Positions 15,888 through 23,102 of a DNA stretch of 38,073 nucleotides are shown here, one piece after another. Source of the stretch: Deltaproteobacteria bacterium. GTDB taxonomy: Bacteria > Desulfobacterota > Dissulfuribacteria > Dissulfuribacterales > QOAL01. The stretch covers positions 1 to 38,073 of the forward strand of contig JALXCD010000149.1 of the NCBI GenBank assembly GCA_026991135.1. The letters are read 5' to 3'. Every line of letters starts with the position of its first letter. Within the stretch, counting starts at the first letter, position 1. The notes below the pieces were generated by a model, which saw only the letters and a list, made by a program, of their open reading frames with translations, had not been told where the DNA came from and searched no databases. The translations under genes and the position numbers were made by a program.

Positions 15888-15925
15888 GCCAAATATTTTT
15901 TGAAAATTACAAGGTGAATGCGATT

Positions 15926-17965
15926 ATGGCTAGTGACAATCAGATAAAAAGTATCAGAAACATAGGAATAATAGCTCATATTGATGCGGGCAAAACCACA
16001 CTTACTGAAAGAATCCTTTATTACACAGGAAAGACCCACAAGATAGGAGAGGTTCATGACGGTCAGGCCACAATGGACTGGATGCCTGAAGAACAAGAAC
16101 GCGGTATAACCATAACCTCGGCAGTGACTACATGTTTCTGGAAAGGGAAAGAGATACATATAATTGATACCCCTGGGCATGTAGATTTCACTATAGAGGT
16201 AGAGCGTTCCTTAAGAGTTCTTGATGGAGCCCTTGGAGTTTTTTGTGCAGTTGGGGGTGTTGAACCACAGTCTGAAACTGTATGGCATCAAGCAGACAAA
16301 TACAGGGTCCCAAAAATGGCCTTTGTAAACAAGATGGATAGGCTTGGTGCAGATTTTTGGAGGGTGGTAAAAGAGCTTAGGGATAGACTTGGTGCAAACC
16401 CTCTGGTTATAACTATCCCTTTGGGATCTGAGGACAATTTTCAGGGTGTTTTTGATGTAATCAAGAAAAAGCTAATTCTCTGGGACGAAAAGACCGAAGG
16501 TAGGGAATTTCAGGAACTAGAGATTCCTAAAGAGCATGAAGAATATGTAAGTGAATCTAGAGAAAGACTTTTAGAGGCCCTCTCAGAGATTGATGAAGAT
16601 TTTATGGAAAAATACCTCTCCGATGAGGAGATAACTGAAAGAGAAATTCATCATGTTGTAAGAAGCGCCTGTTTGAGTCTTAAAGGTGTGCCGGTCTTTT
16701 GTGGTTCTGCCCTTAAAAACAAAGGGGTTCAACCTGTTTTAGATGCCATTGGCAGATATCTTCCAAGTCCGCTGGACATTCCGCCCATAAGGGGCATTAA
16801 TCCGGAAACAGGTGAAGAAGAAGAAAGACGAGCAAGCATCAAAGAGCCCCTTTCTGCATTGGCCTTTAAGGTCCAGATGGATCAGGGTAGGAAAATGACT
16901 TATGTGAGAGTCTATAGTGGGATACTTAACGCCGGTCAGGAAGTCTGGAATGCCACAAAGTCAAAAAAGGAAAAGATTGCAAGGCTTTTAAGAATGCACG
17001 CTAATAAGAGAGAAAGGATAAAGGAAGCTGGCGCCGGACAAATTGTTGCTGTTATGGGTCTAAAACTTGCTGGCACTGGAGACACTATTTGTGATCCGGA
17101 ACACCCCATCATTCTTGAATCAATTGATACCTATCAGCCTGTCATATCTGTTGCAGTGGAGCCAAAATCCACTCAGGATCAGGAAAAGGTTGAGGCAAGT
17201 CTTAGAAAACTTGCTGAAGAGGATCCAACCTTCAGGGTCCGTTTCGATGAGGAAACAGGACAGACCATAATCTCTGGCATGGGTGAGCTTCACCTTGAGG
17301 TATTAACCCACCGGCTTTTGAGAGAATTTAATGTACCTGTAAGAGTTGGAAAACCACAGGTGGTTTACAGAGAGACTATCCAGAAGGAAGCAACTGTCAC
17401 TGAAAGGTTTGACCGGGAAATTGGTGGAAGCAAGCAAGTTGCGACCCTGACAATTACTGTAAAACCTAGAGAAAGGGGAGAAGGGAATCTAGTAAGGAGT
17501 GAGCTACCTGAAGATGCTCTTCCTGAAGGATATCTCGAGCAGATAATTGAGACACTCGAACAGGGCCTCGACAGTGGAGTCCTTCAGGGTTTTCCAATGA
17601 TAGATACAGAAGTAATTGTGAAGGAGGCAAAGTTTGAAGAGGGACTTTCGACTGATCTTGCCTTCAGGGCCTGCGCCTCAATGGCCCTTAGAAAGGTATG
17701 TGAAGAGGCAGAGCCGGTACTTCTTGAACCAAAGATGCTGGTAGAGGTAATCACACCTGAAAACTTTATGGGGGATGTCATTGGAGACTTAAATAGCAGA
17801 GGCGGTAAGGTGGAAAGCATTGAGCCACGGGGAGCTGTCCAGGTAATTAAGGCAATCGTTCCCCTTTCAAAGATGTTTGGCTATTCAACTGCCTTGAGGT
17901 CCGCTACCCAAGGCCGCGCCAATTTTACAATGGTATTTTCCCATTATGATCCCATTGAGGATTAA
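15926..17965 (+). CDS. fusA: Translation elongation factor G
   Basis: A 679-aa GTPase that drives ribosomal translocation (and, with ribosome recycling factor, recycling). P-loop AHIDAGKT (17-24), switch I with [13 protein letters not shown] and NKMD motifs are intact, and domains III-V follow to the end. I chose ATG 15926 because AAGGTGA (15911-15917) is a good Shine-Dalgarno 8 nt upstream and contains the alternative GTG start at 15914. The gene is not in a str operon (no rpsL, rpsG or tuf nearby) and has [11 protein letters not shown] where classical EF-G often has TTTERILFYTG, so this may be a second, specialised EF-G paralogue rather than the main one. It precedes efp by 71 bp. Confidence 0.93.
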
Positions 17966-18036
17966 AATGCTTGCATAATATGGTGTAATATTTTAGAAAT
18001 TTTCAAATTTAAAAAGTACTTGAAAGGAGTCCTGCT

Positions 18037-18600
18037 GTGTATGAGTCATCAGACCTTAGAAAGGGGCTAAAAATCATTATAGATGGTCAGCCCTACATAA
18101 TAACTGAATTTCAATTTTCAAAGCCAGGTAAAGGGCAAGCACTTTATAGATGCAAGCTTAAAAATATGATAACGGGCTACACCATGGACAGAACCTATCG
18201 CTCTGGAGACAAATTTGAGCCTGCCAACCTGGAAGAAAGAAGGATGCAGTATCTTTATAACGATGCTGAGGGTTATCACTTTATGGATACCCACACCTAT
18301 GATCAGGTAACACTCAGCGAAGATAATGTAGGAAATGCCAAAAATTTCCTTCAAGACAATATGGAAGTAGATGTCCTTTTCTTTAATGAAACCCCTATTA
18401 GTATAAATCTCCCTAATTTTGTCCATCTCAAGGTAGTAAAATCCGACCCCGGTGTTAAAGGGGATACGGCAACTGGCGCCACTAAGCCGGCCACGCTTGA
18501 GACAGGTTATACTTTACAAGTTCCGCTTTTTATTGAAGAGGGGGACATCTTAAAAATTGATACAAGAACTGGTGAATATGTTGAAAGGGTAAAGGTATAA
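18037..18600 (+). CDS. efp: Translation elongation factor P
   Basis: A 187-aa EF-P of normal length with three beta-barrel domains. It binds between the ribosomal P and E sites and relieves stalling at consecutive prolines. The modification loop is KPGKGQA with K32 at the tip, the residue that carries beta-lysine in EpmA-type bacteria. Start is GTG at 18037, preceded by GAAAGGAGT; the fit of the N-terminus (YESSDLRKGLKI) supports it. It lies between fusA and epmA (9-bp gap), and the adjacent EpmA strongly suggests (R)-beta-lysylation of K32. Confidence 0.97.
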   Translation: MYESSDLRKGLKIIIDGQPYIITEFQFSKPGKGQALYRCKLKNMITGYTMDRTYRSGDKFEPANLEERRMQYLYNDAEGYHFMDTHTYDQVTLSEDNVGNAKNFLQDNMEVDVLFFNETPISINLPNFVHLKVVKSDPGVKGDTATGATKPATLETGYTLQVPLFIEEGDILKIDTRTGEYVERVKV

Positions 18601-18609
18601 AAGAGACAG

Positions 18610-19527
18610 GTGGTGCACCTTGGGAAACGAGAAATCATCATTTCCCGCCACCTGCTCTTGAAAGCCATAAGGGAATGGTTTTTCTCTAACGGATTTATTG
18701 AAGTCCAGGTACCGGTCCTTTCGAAAACCCCAATACCTGAAGCAACTATTGATCTTTTTTCCCTAAGTAACAAGGGACAAACATTTTATCTACTTTCCTC
18801 GCCAGAACTCTATTTAAAGCCACTACTTTCCTTAAATCTTAAAAAGATTTTTTCCATAACTCCTGCCTTTAGAAAGGAAGAAAGGGGACCTTATCATCTT
18901 GAACAGTTTTTTATATTGGAATGGTACAGGGCAAAATCAACATATAAGGACCTGTTTTTTGACTGTGAAGAGCTTTTAGATATTTCATCTTCCGCTCTAA
19001 GCCCTGTTCTTGGTGACAAAAGGATATTCAAAGGAAAAGAAATTGATCTTTCAAGGCCCTTTCAATGTTTAGAAGTAAAGGACGCTTTTGAAAAATATGC
19101 AGGATGGGACCCATTTAAAAAAAAGGATGAACTCCATTTTTATGAAGATCTCGCGTTTAAAATCGAACCCAATCTTCCTGAAGACAGGCCTGTTTTTTTG
19201 ATGGATTATCCCGATTGGGCAAGTTCTCTTTCAAAATTAAAGAACGAAAATAGAAATGTATGTGAACGATTTGAACTTTATCTTTGTGGAATTGAACTTG
19301 CCAATGGCTTTTCAGAATTAATGGATCCTATTGAACAACGACAACGGTTTTTAATAGAAAATATAAAAAGGGAAAAACAGGGCCTGAAACCTTTACCTAT
19401 TCCTGAAAATTTTTTATCAAAGCTCAAGGATTGTCCTGAGGCTTCAGGTATAGCCCTCGGTATAGATAGGCTTTTGATGATACTTACCAATTCTAAAAAC
19501 ATAGAAGAAGTCCAGGCAGTTATCTAA
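18610..19527 (+). CDS. epmA: EF-P lysine ligase EpmA (GenX/PoxA)
   Basis: A 305-aa class II lysyl-tRNA synthetase-like protein without the N-terminal anticodon-binding OB domain. Motif 2 is FRKEERGPYHLEQFFILEWY (88-106), and motif 3 is GIALGIDRLLMIL (280-292). Ala at 282, where lysyl-tRNA synthetases have Gly, is the EpmA-type substitution linked in the E. coli enzyme to selecting (R)-beta-lysine. It attaches this group to the EF-P lysine. It begins with two consecutive GTG codons, 9 bp after efp, with only a weak Shine-Dalgarno, so coupling to efp is likely. EpmB, the lysine 2,3-aminomutase partner, is not in the window. Confidence 0.93.
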   Translation: MVHLGKREIIISRHLLLKAIREWFFSNGFIEVQVPVLSKTPIPEATIDLFSLSNKGQTFYLLSSPELYLKPLLSLNLKKIFSITPAFRKEERGPYHLEQFFILEWYRAKSTYKDLFFDCEELLDISSSALSPVLGDKRIFKGKEIDLSRPFQCLEVKDAFEKYAGWDPFKKKDELHFYEDLAFKIEPNLPEDRPVFLMDYPDWASSLSKLKNENRNVCERFELYLCGIELANGFSELMDPIEQRQRFLIENIKREKQGLKPLPIPENFLSKLKDCPEASGIALGIDRLLMILTNSKNIEEVQAVI

Positions 19528-19589: not shown

Positions 19590-19727
19590 GTGTAGTCCTT
19601 AGAGAAGTTTTTTCACCAATTTAACAAAAGCCAAGAAAACATTTGGCAAAAAATTTTTATAAATTTTTACATTCTTTCCGATTAGATGACAAGAAAAGGT
19701 CAAATACTTTTGTAATTGGAGGCAACC

Positions 19728-20999
19728 ATGTCATATCTGCCACGAAGTAAAATGCTATTTGGATTTATTTGTCTTTTTTCTTTTCTTGCTATTGGATGTG
19801 GGCAAAAGGTTAAGGATTCTGTGAAACCAGTTGATACCACAATGATAAGAAATCCAAACCCATGCGTTCGTCTGGTAATGCTCCCCTTTGCTGATTATTC
19901 GTCTGGAAGACATCTGGATGACTCGCTTAGAAGACAGATAAAAATTCAGACTGCCATCTCATACAACTTGGCGTCAAGAGGATATTATTTGCCTGTTGAA
20001 GAAGATGTAGTTCAATATCTTGTTGATCTTGGAGTCATAAATCTTATTGAAACACAGACTGTTAGCTCAAGACATAACAGAAAAAGCTTTTACAGAGAAC
20101 TTGGTTCTGGATGGTCAGCCGATATGAAAAAGGAAATTAATAATATTCTTCTTCAAAATGAACTTATGAACGTCCCAGAAGAAGAGCTAAAGATGAACAT
20201 GATCGGCCTTAATAAAGACGTTATAAAACAGATAGGAGAATATTTTGGTGCAGATTTTGTGTTAAGAGGTCGTATTGTAGAGTATGAGATGAGAGAAGGA
20301 CAAGACCTTAATCCCCTTCAGCAAGGAATTTTACCCTTTTTCTTTGACTGGACCTCGGCCACAATCTTTGGGGTAGCACAATCTGAAAAGTATGACCTTT
20401 GGCAAAACCTGGCAATAGGAGGGGCCATGGGTGCTGGACTTGGATCAATGGCTAATACCCCCTTTAATGCGCCTACAGAATCCTCACATGTCGTAGGTAC
20501 ACACCCACGTTTTGCCCATGTTGTTACAGAGACTTCTGGAGGATATACAAATTCTGCCCTCCTTAATGCAGGTGTATGGGGAGCTGCAGGAATGGCTGCT
20601 GCCTATCTAGCATCAAAGGGTGGACATGTCCCAAAGGCGGTAGTGCAAATAAGTCTTGCACTGCAAGATACTGAAACTGGACAGGTCGTTTGGGCAAATA
20701 GGGTTGAAAAAGAAGTTGAGCCTATAAGCATGTGGGCGGATCCATCGGATAGAAAAAATATGGACAGAGCAATCGAAGAAGCCACTAAGGCCCTTTTGAC
20801 TGACCTTACCAATACCCTTGCCCTTTGTAACAAGTGCCAACCTGCTGGAACATGTGAAGAACCACAAATTCAGCAAGCTGCCACAGTTCAGCCAATCGAC
20901 AATATTCAAAGCTCACCAACCACCAGTGGTCAACAAGGCATTGAACCAGTTCAGCAACTTGAGCTTCCCAAAAAACACCCTGAAAATTGGGGCTCTTAA
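19728..20999 (+). CDS. Outer-membrane lipoprotein, CsgG/LpoB-like pattern
   Basis: A 423-aa lipoprotein. The chosen ATG (19728) has GGAGG at 19718-19722; an in-frame TTG at 19716 overlaps that site and is unlikely. The signal peptide ends in the lipobox LAIGC, giving a lipidated Cys. The part following contains RLVMLPFADYSSGRHLDDSL, ISYNLASRGYYLPVEEDV and FGADFVLRGRIVEYEM, the arrangement of CsgG/LpoB/TolB-N-like lipoproteins that assemble at the outer membrane. Next comes a Gly/Ala-rich hydrophobic patch (QNLAIGGAMGAGLGSM, LLNAGVWGAAGMAAAYLASK), which could be membrane-associating. The conserved end (QDTETGQVVWANRVEKEVEP) is again CsgG/LpoB-like, followed by a Gln/Pro-rich tail. It forms an operon with the retropepsin-like gene (15-bp gap). 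Exact function unknown. Confidence 0.8.
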   Translation: MSYLPRSKMLFGFICLFSFLAIGCGQKVKDSVKPVDTTMIRNPNPCVRLVMLPFADYSSGRHLDDSLRRQIKIQTAISYNLASRGYYLPVEEDVVQYLVDLGVINLIETQTVSSRHNRKSFYRELGSGWSADMKKEINNILLQNELMNVPEEELKMNMIGLNKDVIKQIGEYFGADFVLRGRIVEYEMREGQDLNPLQQGILPFFFDWTSATIFGVAQSEKYDLWQNLAIGGAMGAGLGSMANTPFNAPTESSHVVGTHPRFAHVVTETSGGYTNSALLNAGVWGAAGMAAAYLASKGGHVPKAVVQISLALQDTETGQVVWANRVEKEVEPISMWADPSDRKNMDRAIEEATKALLTDLTNTLALCNKCQPAGTCEEPQIQQAATVQPIDNIQSSPTTSGQQGIEPVQQLELPKKHPENWGS

Positions 21000-21014: not shown

Positions 21015-23102
21015 ATGAATAGAAAATTTTTATTAAATATTTTAATAAGCTTTCTGGCAATAGGGGCATTTTTTATTTCTGTTGGTTTCTCGGAAGATAG
21101 CTATCAAAGCCCATATAATAAGACATGTAGCGCTACTAAAACCGGTAGATTAGTAATTTCACCCACAAGCCTTGAATTTTATGTAAACCAGGAGCAGCTT
21201 AAAAATCCAGAACCCGTGACAGTAAGGCTTACTGGTTTTGCATTTCCCAACTGTTCTGATGCCAATTGCACAAAGGAAATGATAAATCAGATTGACCAGT
21301 GTTATTATGTAGATTCAAGCGGAGCCCGCACATCCAATAGCACAAATGCCACTTCTATGAAGTGTATAACTATTCCAGGTACGGATGACCCTTCCGCACA
21401 TCATGTAATTTGGCCTGAAAAACTTGATTTTTGCTGGATTGCAGCACCAACTGAGCAATGGATTAGTATAAATGGACAAACTGCCGGAGTTGCCATTGAC
21501 TCAAGTGACGGAAATGGAAGTTTTACAGTGACGGTAGATGTAAGCAAGCTTGTAGATAGTAATTCAGTATATACTGGTGAAGCGACTGTAAAGGAGGGTT
21601 GGATACAGGTAACAACTACTATTCATGACCCAAGTATTCCTGGTGACAATGGAACGTATATGCGCTCACATATTGACCAAAGTATTAAAGAACATGTTAC
21701 TGCCACACTATCTGATTGGTCTATTTCAGACGACCTTCCAGTTGACCAACAGATGTCAACATGGTGGATACCGGTAAAGGTTTATGTCAATTCACTTCAT
21801 GAGGCACAACAACAAAATATTGCCACAACAGACTGGATGAATCTAACCTTAAATGTACCTGTTTCCAGTGATATAGAAGGTGCCCTATATATTTTGGCAG
21901 AACATCCATCCCTTTCTCCAGGTCAAATTTATGCCTATAGGATTATAAATAGCCAACCACAATTTGACCTTTTCAGCAGTTGGGGAAATCCTGTACCAGG
22001 TGCTGAAAGTCTCTATTTTGCCCAGGATGTGCAAAATACACCAATCGCAATTCCATTTAGCTCCCATAAAGATGATCTATTAACCCTTACTATTCCCTAT
22101 AAAGAGACCAATACTAACATTGGATTTTCAAGTAATGACATTCCCGATGTCAAGGCCTTTATACCCGTGGCATTTGGCGGTGGCATAAGACTTATTGGAA
22201 TGGAAGGTGACTGGATAATCAGGGCAGTAGTGGGAGATCCAAATGACATCACTAACTATAGATCATGGCGAGAACTACTGTACTATGTACTTCATGTAAG
22301 GCCAATTTCAGGACGCTGGATTGTTACTGAAGAATATGATGGAGAGACCTTTACCTATATTGACAATGGCACTATTTATCCACTAATTTTAAATGAAGAA
22401 AGAGGAAAGTTGTCAGGGGCATGGATTACCCCTAATGGACAAACTGTTCTGGCGGTAAATTATTCCAATCCTACAGATGGTGTTTGTAAGCACTTTTCAA
22501 TTCAAGGCCAGCGGGTTCTTATTGAAAATTGTATTCGACCAGGTAAGTACGACATCTATTTTACTGAAAACACCATTTGGGGGCCCTTTGAGTATCTCTA
22601 TCGTATAGATTCTTTTGATGTTGACACTGGTGGAAAAATTGAGGGACAATGGCAATATAAGGGTGTTGGCGACTTAGACTGGTCAGTTCCTCAAAAATTT
22701 AGCGCTGTTACAGAAGATGTTGTCATACCTCTAGATCCAAGTTGTAATTGTTACAGGGTGGCAGGAAAGGTCAATGGTATTGCTACACCTTTCATTGTTG
22801 ACACAGGAGCAGCAATGGTACTCCTAAATCTTAATGATGCAGATATGTATAAAATTCCTAGAGATGCTAATGGAACAATTTCCTCTGAATATTGTATTGA
22901 AGGAAAAGCTGTGGGAGTTGGCGGAGAAATTACTGGCTATTATTGCCCAGTGGATATAGAAATTGAGGGGAAACTTAGGATGAAAAATGTAACTGCTTTC
23001 CTGTCTGAAAACCAGGATACTGCACTTCTTGGCATGACATTTCTAAAATACTTCCATGTATCTACAAGTGCTACTGATGGCACAATGGTAATTTCCAAAT
23101 AG
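21015..23102 (+). CDS. Secreted protein with BACON-like domains and C-terminal retropepsin-like aspartic protease
   Basis: A 695-aa protein with a signal peptide (about 1-26) and a good AGGAGG ribosome site. Residues 44-200 look like a BACON-type beta-sandwich (LVISPTSLEFYVNQ; then WISINGQTAGVAIDSS and FTVTVDVSKLV, VYTGEATVKEGWIQVTTTI), interrupted by a Cys-rich insert (C80, C85, C96, C117, C140). A second similar unit may cover 228-310. Residues 430-560 form another beta-rich region. The C-terminus (575-695) is a retropepsin-type domain: catalytic FIVDTGAAMVLL with D596, flap-like GVGGE near 634-638, and ALLGMTFLKYF (670-680). Such single-lobe proteases work as dimers. The gene is followed by a strong terminator. 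Substrate and location (periplasm or surface) are unknown. Confidence 0.8.
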   Translation: MNRKFLLNILISFLAIGAFFISVGFSEDSYQSPYNKTCSATKTGRLVISPTSLEFYVNQEQLKNPEPVTVRLTGFAFPNCSDANCTKEMINQIDQCYYVDSSGARTSNSTNATSMKCITIPGTDDPSAHHVIWPEKLDFCWIAAPTEQWISINGQTAGVAIDSSDGNGSFTVTVDVSKLVDSNSVYTGEATVKEGWIQVTTTIHDPSIPGDNGTYMRSHIDQSIKEHVTATLSDWSISDDLPVDQQMSTWWIPVKVYVNSLHEAQQQNIATTDWMNLTLNVPVSSDIEGALYILAEHPSLSPGQIYAYRIINSQPQFDLFSSWGNPVPGAESLYFAQDVQNTPIAIPFSSHKDDLLTLTIPYKETNTNIGFSSNDIPDVKAFIPVAFGGGIRLIGMEGDWIIRAVVGDPNDITNYRSWRELLYYVLHVRPISGRWIVTEEYDGETFTYIDNGTIYPLILNEERGKLSGAWITPNGQTVLAVNYSNPTDGVCKHFSIQGQRVLIENCIRPGKYDIYFTENTIWGPFEYLYRIDSFDVDTGGKIEGQWQYKGVGDLDWSVPQKFSAVTEDVVIPLDPSCNCYRVAGKVNGIATPFIVDTGAAMVLLNLNDADMYKIPRDANGTISSEYCIEGKAVGVGGEITGYYCPVDIEIEGKLRMKNVTAFLSENQDTALLGMTFLKYFHVSTSATDGTMVISK

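Follow-up and report, generated by a model that had tools for sequence, protein, structure and literature searches.

A likely exported retropepsin with a remote BACON-like domain, encoded next to a lipoprotein gene in one order of sulfur bacteria

The 38,073-nucleotide stretch of DNA analyzed here (the window) encodes a likely exported 695-aa protein that combines an apparent remote relative of the BACON domain, two conserved middle modules, and a C-terminal retropepsin-type aspartic protease. The gene directly upstream codes for a predicted lipoprotein. This lipoprotein gene always adjoins the protease gene, and the two may together make up an envelope protease unit of one group of sulfur bacteria that has not been described before. 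The kind of enzyme is known; the architecture of the chain, the fixed lipoprotein partner, and the cysteines of the flap have not been described, as far as could be checked in the genomes of the phylum and in the literature, within which the novelty of the architecture was judged.

Gene and domain organization

The window is a single contig of a 2.3-Mb assembly that consists of 164 contigs. The open reading frame at positions 21015 to 23102 of the plus strand, whose coordinates were confirmed exactly, begins with ATG, 15 nt past the stop codon of the preceding gene, and is immediately preceded by AGAGGAGG, a strong ribosome-binding sequence. Scans for promoters and terminators between and around the lipoprotein and protease genes returned only signals of the level seen in shuffled sequences. 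The following features were recognized, all on the plus strand:

19716..20999, plus strand: partner lipoprotein gene, product of about 422-427 aa with a lipobox-like LAIGCGQ and a predicted ABD fold of the CsgG/LpoB/PelC/TraT kind (Pfam; Foldseek/VIA on a low-confidence model)
21015..23102, plus strand: whole gene for the 695-aa, probably secreted protein (BACON-like domain, beta modules, retropepsin)
21015..21095, plus strand: probable Sec signal peptide, residues 1-27, without a lipobox (sequence, orthologue alignment, predicted helix 3-19)
21144..21788, plus strand: one BACON-like domain, residues 44-258, with two inserts inside (profile-profile match to BACON_2 repeats; compact homologues)
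21249..21425, plus strand: Cys-containing insert, residues 79-137 (C80, C85, C96, C117), variable and missing from the compact homologues
21789..22304, plus strand: conserved middle module, residues 259-430 (EHPSLSPGQ.YAYR ... GG.RLIG.EGD), of no known family (alignments; blank in Pfam)
22305..22724, plus strand: conserved beta-rich module, residues 431-570 (G.W.VTE...G.LSG.W), also present in protease-less relatives (alignments; low-confidence model)
22725..23099, plus strand: retropepsin domain, residues 571-695, reaching the natural C terminus (Pfam, profile, and fold matches)
22800..22811, plus strand: catalytic DTGA motif with D596, invariant in all domain-bearing homologues
22893..22946, plus strand: flap hairpin with the GVGG tip (634-637) and C627 and C644 on either side
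23025..23033, plus strand: LLG, a hydrophobic-hydrophobic-Gly motif, residues 671-673, which the family shares with other bacterial retropepsins

The N-terminal 27 residues resemble a type I Sec signal peptide with no lipobox Cys, as judged by sequence inspection, and the alignment of orthologues reveals a common cleavage region of the "xxAxAEDS" type. The product is therefore likely to be an exported envelope protein, which would be compatible with location in the periplasm, at the inner face of the outer membrane, or on the cell surface. No surface anchor or sorting signal was found in the 695-aa protein; the proposal in the sequence-only reading that it is a surface-targeted protease stays plausible on these sequence features.

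The gene is under purifying selection: comparison with a homologous sequence, L042, yielded dN/dS values of about 0.02-0.09 per domain, which are rough because dS exceeds 1. The 3.6-kb contig that carries L042 and L002 (coverage 1.2 according to its name) shares 85-89% identity with the window, and the genome to which it is assigned, G036, is placed in a different family; this contig has probably been mis-binned.

The retropepsin domain

Residues 571-695 are, beyond doubt on the profile and fold-model evidence, a single-lobe retropepsin domain of clan AA. The Pfam entry PF13975 matches residues 583-678 with an E value of 1.7e-9 (38.6 bits against a cutoff of 28.2), PF13650 scores 34.6 bits against a cutoff of 24.3, and the profile of the family recognizes the APRc protease of Rickettsia (E = 1.4e-10) as well as retroviral proteases. 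TIGR02281 (clan_AA_DTGA) scored 38.9 bits, which is under the curated NCBIfam cutoff of 57.95. The modelled protease resembles APRc (Foldseek E value of 7.9e-7; Z score of 14.5 and rmsd of 3.3 over 125 residues) and the HIV protease (Z score of 13.2 and rmsd of 1.8 over 98 residues). The C-terminal DTGA-type aspartic protease proposed from the sequence alone is thus borne out by the PF13975 match and the APRc-like fold. Conservation of the catalytic Asp had been set as a test of that proposal, and D596 turned out to be retained in every domain-bearing homologue: the DTGA motif is found in all 25 homologues examined, which come from many genera of a single order. Residues D596, T597, G598, and A599, the flap GG, and the LLG motif are all retained across the family. 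No other PF13975 protein is encoded in the same genome.

Single-lobe retropepsins must pair two chains in order to form one active site. The protein ends with the protease domain, so the C-terminal strand, which serves for subunit pairing in the retroviral enzymes, would be free to pair.

The flap of this domain is flanked by two cysteines, C627 and C644. Such a pair spanning the flap is present in all 22 full-length distinct members of the family and in 0 of the 28 other PF13975 bacterial retropepsins of the phylum. The spacing between the two cysteines is 17 residues in most members (14-21 at the extremes), and the distance from the catalytic Asp to the pair varies from 22 to 33. In the model, the flap strands comprise residues 628-634 and 637-650 (pLDDT 72-88), and C627 and C644 are directly opposed in the predicted hairpin (627 + 644 = 634 + 637). 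Given that the pair is conserved and that its members face each other in this hairpin, a C627-C644 disulfide stapling the flap is likely. The literature consulted on flap disulfides in bacterial retropepsins contains no description of such a flap-flanking arrangement. If real, this disulfide would give a retropepsin a natural redox switch, a mechanism of which we know no description for the bacterial enzymes. A second pair, C577 and C579, is either jointly present or jointly absent in the members of the family.

The BACON-like domain and the middle modules

Direct sequence searches of Pfam and the PDB returned nothing for residues 1-570. Neither of the Pfam BACON entries (PF13004 and PF19190) matched the 695-aa protein, and residues 27-272 stayed blank at E values of up to 10. 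The homologues do carry BACON_2 domains that Pfam recognizes, with E values down to 7.7e-18: the 1086-aa homologue in the genome G024 has six BACON_2 stretches (E = 1e-17) and the L032 homologue has two BACON_2 repeats, in both cases followed by the same middle modules. The BACON-like unit of the protein studied here (residues 44-258) reads "GRLVISPTSLEFY...FCWIAAPTEQWISI...G.FTVTVDV..L...WIPVKVYVN"; homologues from other genera have a compact unit of only about 125-140 residues that lacks both the Cys-containing insert and a second insert at residues 206-250.

Kinship of the N-terminal region to BACON had likewise been made a test beforehand, and it received support from an hhalign comparison of the profile of the window-type domain with the BACON_2 repeats of the homologues (P = 2.9e-6, probability 88), whereas the reversed profile gave P = 0.19 and eight shuffled ones gave P values of 0.12-0.8. 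The match is a single aligned stretch of 52 columns with an F.W.A.....WI...G...F.V.V core. These comparisons support, remotely, the assignment of residues 44-258 as a BACON relative. The plural "BACON domains" of the sequence-only reading has to give way to a single unit; the plural fits the G024 homologue. The cysteine-bearing insert of that reading was found in place (residues 79-137, with four Cys). The adhesive or glycan-related role that it took over from other BACON domains need not follow, as the BACON domain of BoGH5A has been proposed to act as a spacer and not as a binder (PMC11216935).

What had been seen as "further beta-rich regions" resolves into two conserved modules, residues 259-430 and 431-570. 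AlphaFold modelling with 14 close homologues reached usable confidence for the protease domain only. The list of structural matches for the whole model was filled by the protease domain and therefore carries no information on the other parts. The model of residues 44-258 is beta-rich with pLDDT mostly in the range of 30-75, and model confidence is low in the N-terminal and middle parts as a whole.

The upstream lipoprotein

In all 23 genomes in which the upstream sequence is available, the lipoprotein gene immediately precedes the protease gene (two further genomes, not included in this count, stop at a contig edge), with stop-to-start distances of about -29 to +99 nt. In the window, the other neighbors code for EpmA, EF-P, EF-G, a SpoU methylase, an ABC substrate-binding protein, and a histidine kinase. 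Those encoding EF-G, EF-P, EpmA, the SpoU methylase, and the kinase are neighbors only among close relatives, which singles out the lipoprotein and protease genes as the conserved unit. The genes for EF-G, EF-P, and an EpmA/GenX-type EF-P lysine ligase stand in a row at positions 15914-19527, just upstream of the pair.

The LpoB and CsgG signal is weak but recurs consistently: eleven of the 12 lipoprotein members examined match the Pfam LpoB entry (best E value, 1.2e-7), and 11 of the 12 match CsgG at E values of up to 0.1 (best, 1.1e-6). The window lipoprotein itself scores 25.7 bits with LpoB (cutoff, 22.3; residues 152-195) and 17.9 bits with CsgG, under the curated cutoff of 20.8. The LpoB match is a sequence similarity at the level of the fold and no evidence of a PBP1b activator role. 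In Foldseek/VIA searches, the low-confidence monomer model (mean pLDDT 52) matched GNA1162, CsgG, FlgT, HpaA, PelC, and TraT, and it also resembles the ABD fold of TolB and LptE. With CsgG, LpoB, PelC, TraT, and HpaA, the window lipoprotein shares this ABD-type alpha/beta fold, as far as the low-confidence model goes, and a lipoprotein signal; it differs from them in having its own insertion of ~100 aa with two Gly/Ala-rich hydrophobic segments, predicted in that model as helices and one hairpin.

Genomes that yielded no protease may also encode the lipoprotein, so it has another role or other partners. In five of the genomes examined (G010, G032, G041, G043, and G035), the contigs break beside the lipoprotein gene, at the expected site of the BACON gene, and the absence of the protease there may be an assembly gap. 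In G021, the lipoprotein match (L062:194-1417) crosses one in-frame TAG; a 707-aa frame that follows this gene was rejected as probably spurious, since its translation is rich in Arg, Gly, and His and numerous frames overlap in this GC-rich DNA.

Phyletic distribution and protease-less relatives

Members of the family are encoded in 30 of the 46 sampled genomes of the class, all of which belong to a single order; with this distribution and purifying selection, the presence of the family is beyond chance. PF13975 proteins as such are found in 86 of the 297 genomes across the phylum, and the three long-frame ones that were scanned contain no BACON domain.

Several relatives lack the protease. 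In G026, the lipoprotein gene adjoins, in reversed order, a gene for BACON-like repeats and the two beta modules without the protease. In G009, G013, and G034, a gene for a 1050-1200-aa protein comes after the lipoprotein gene, and a protease-less beta-module gene comes next. Three genomes from another family of the phylum encode BACON repeats with the last beta module, again without the protease. Pairing of the lipoprotein with versions that lack the protease suggests that the latter is an addition at the C terminus. These relatives, which show the architecture to be modular, did not figure in the sequence-only reading, nor did the lipoprotein partner or the flap Cys pair. In the simplest reading, the lipoprotein first went with the beta scaffold, and the retropepsin was gained later, in this order of bacteria, as a C-terminal module; alternatively, the protease may have been lost. 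The tree of the middle modules requires one or two changes of the protease state and is compatible with a single gain of the protease without proving it; long branches meet in it.

The G026 gene (L116:1659-4022) groups with the proteins of another family (100/100), which may reflect horizontal transfer or a long-branch artefact, and its true start probably lies downstream of the annotated one. The 1050-1200-aa proteins are encoded at L056:2574-6020 (G013), L057:1385-4990 (G009), and L058:1495-4644 (G034). The two that were scanned, from G013 and G034, contain three or four HYDIN/ASH-type Ig repeats, an N-terminal part of ~570 aa with no Pfam match, and a C terminus of the DPWTGG type.

Comparison with known proteins

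The nearest solved structure by both profile and fold is APRc (ApRick) of Rickettsia (PDB entries 5c9b, 5c9d, and 5c9f), which is likewise a bacterial single-lobe enzyme with the DTGA motif. Compared to APRc, with which it shares only about 22% identity, the family described here has a cleavable-looking signal peptide and adds the BACON-like domain, two beta modules, the flap Cys pair, and the adjacent gene for the ABD lipoprotein. RloA and RimB are retropepsin-like proteases of Pseudomonas; RloA is periplasmic or secreted, has a signal peptide and a role in envelope stress, and is described as grouped by Pfam with the zinc proteases (PMC12239564). While RloA resembles the present family in being a bacterial retropepsin with a signal peptide, its disulfide links its C-terminal tail with the strand that follows the flap (PMC12239564), whereas the Cys pair found here flanks the flap itself. 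No operon of the RloB/RloC type is found at the locus of the family, and no BACON domain has been described for RloA or RimB. Membership in the RimB/RloA group was rejected, as the window neighbors include no ATP-grasp protein (RimK or RloC). Proteins of this phylum that fall under TIGR02281 (clan AA DTGA) or PF13975, which frequently carry DUF4124, belong to the same clan and share the core motifs but lack the flap Cys pair; six that were scanned contain no BACON domain.

BoGH5A and the BT4244-like M60-like peptidases are also exported proteins with an N-terminal BACON beside a C-terminal catalytic domain. Their enzymatic domains are, however, a glycosidase or a zinc peptidase instead of an aspartic retropepsin, and the BACON-like domain of the 695-aa protein contains two inserts and has diverged beyond recognition by Pfam. 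A literature search for "BACON domain" together with "aspartic protease" returned no paper with both.

Proposed function and alternatives

The reading that we favor, and to which we give about an even chance, is that of an exported homodimeric retropepsin on a BACON/beta scaffold that acts at the envelope together with an outer-membrane lipoprotein. According to this scheme, which draws on sequence features and models, the 695-aa protein would be exported by Sec, and its BACON/beta part would serve both as a spacer and for docking the enzyme onto the lipoprotein. A docking role is suggested by the persistent linkage of this part to the lipoprotein gene in relatives without the protease, although gene adjacency is no proof of a physical interaction. 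The retropepsin domains of two chains would then pair into one active site, and the C627-C644 disulfide, formed in the oxidizing environment of the envelope, would stiffen the flap and might hold the enzyme inactive until export. The dimer would cut an envelope or surface protein, possibly also itself. The disulfide-bonded RloA provides a precedent, by analogy, for an exported retropepsin with a role at the envelope (PMC12239564).

Self-processing, which the sequence-only reading had offered for an envelope protein, would make it the main task of the retropepsin to sever itself from the chain, or to cleave that chain between modules, in the retroviral manner, releasing a structural or binding BACON/beta protein and a free protease. 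The protease is indeed the last domain, relatives without it keep the rest, so that the front part can work alone, and residue 1 of the HIV protease falls, in the structural alignment, on residue 570, the domain boundary. Still, we consider this unlikely: the junction region 571-IPLDPSCNCY-580 ranks with the best-conserved stretches of the near family, it lies inside the predicted protease fold and not in a loose linker, and no cleavage site could be identified in the sequence. A secreted digestive or glycoprotein-targeting protease, with modules that bind glycans or other polymers and with scavenged protein degraded outside the cell, would agree with the signal peptide but appears quite unlikely, as retropepsins are usually narrow in specificity and the gene is single-copy, vertically kept, and accompanied by a fixed lipoprotein partner with no degradation locus. 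The model for such an enzyme would be the BACON-CBM32-M60 mucinases, M60-like peptidases in which BACON occurs with CBM32 and of which BT4244 degrades mucin (PMC3267712), yet the spacer interpretation of the BoGH5A BACON (PMC11216935) speaks against a binding role.

The lipoprotein could also form a CsgG- or TraT-like ring in an envelope-biogenesis unit, with the BACON/beta/protease protein as its exported cargo or plug. This is in line with the invariant gene pairing, the two Gly/Ala-rich hydrophobic segments in the insertion, and the similarity of the lipoprotein model to CsgG (Z score of up to 11.3, rmsd of 4.5 over 132 residues), PelC (10.3 and 3.8 over 124 residues), and TraT (8.5 and 11.0 over 167 residues). 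We regard it as very unlikely, however, since TolB, LptE, LpoB, and others share the fold and form no pore, the model is of low confidence, and transmembrane hairpins of the CsgG type are only hypothetical. Equally doubtful is a bolder combination, in which the ring of ABD lipoproteins would export or display a disulfide-gated retropepsin that trims surface proteins, the protease having been added to an older BACON/beta cargo. That the retropepsin fold is kept solely for dimerization or binding, with no catalysis, is extremely improbable: the full set of active-site, flap, and LLG residues is retained, as expected of an enzyme and not of a dead scaffold.

The favored scheme, an envelope retropepsin working with the lipoprotein, would be of interest because the importance of exported bacterial retropepsins for envelope stress and biofilms has been recognized only recently. 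To our knowledge, few such enzymes have known partners or substrates. Here, the retropepsin comes with a scaffold and a single constant lipoprotein partner, and the protease-less versions are natural controls, so that the contributions of protease and scaffold can be told apart.
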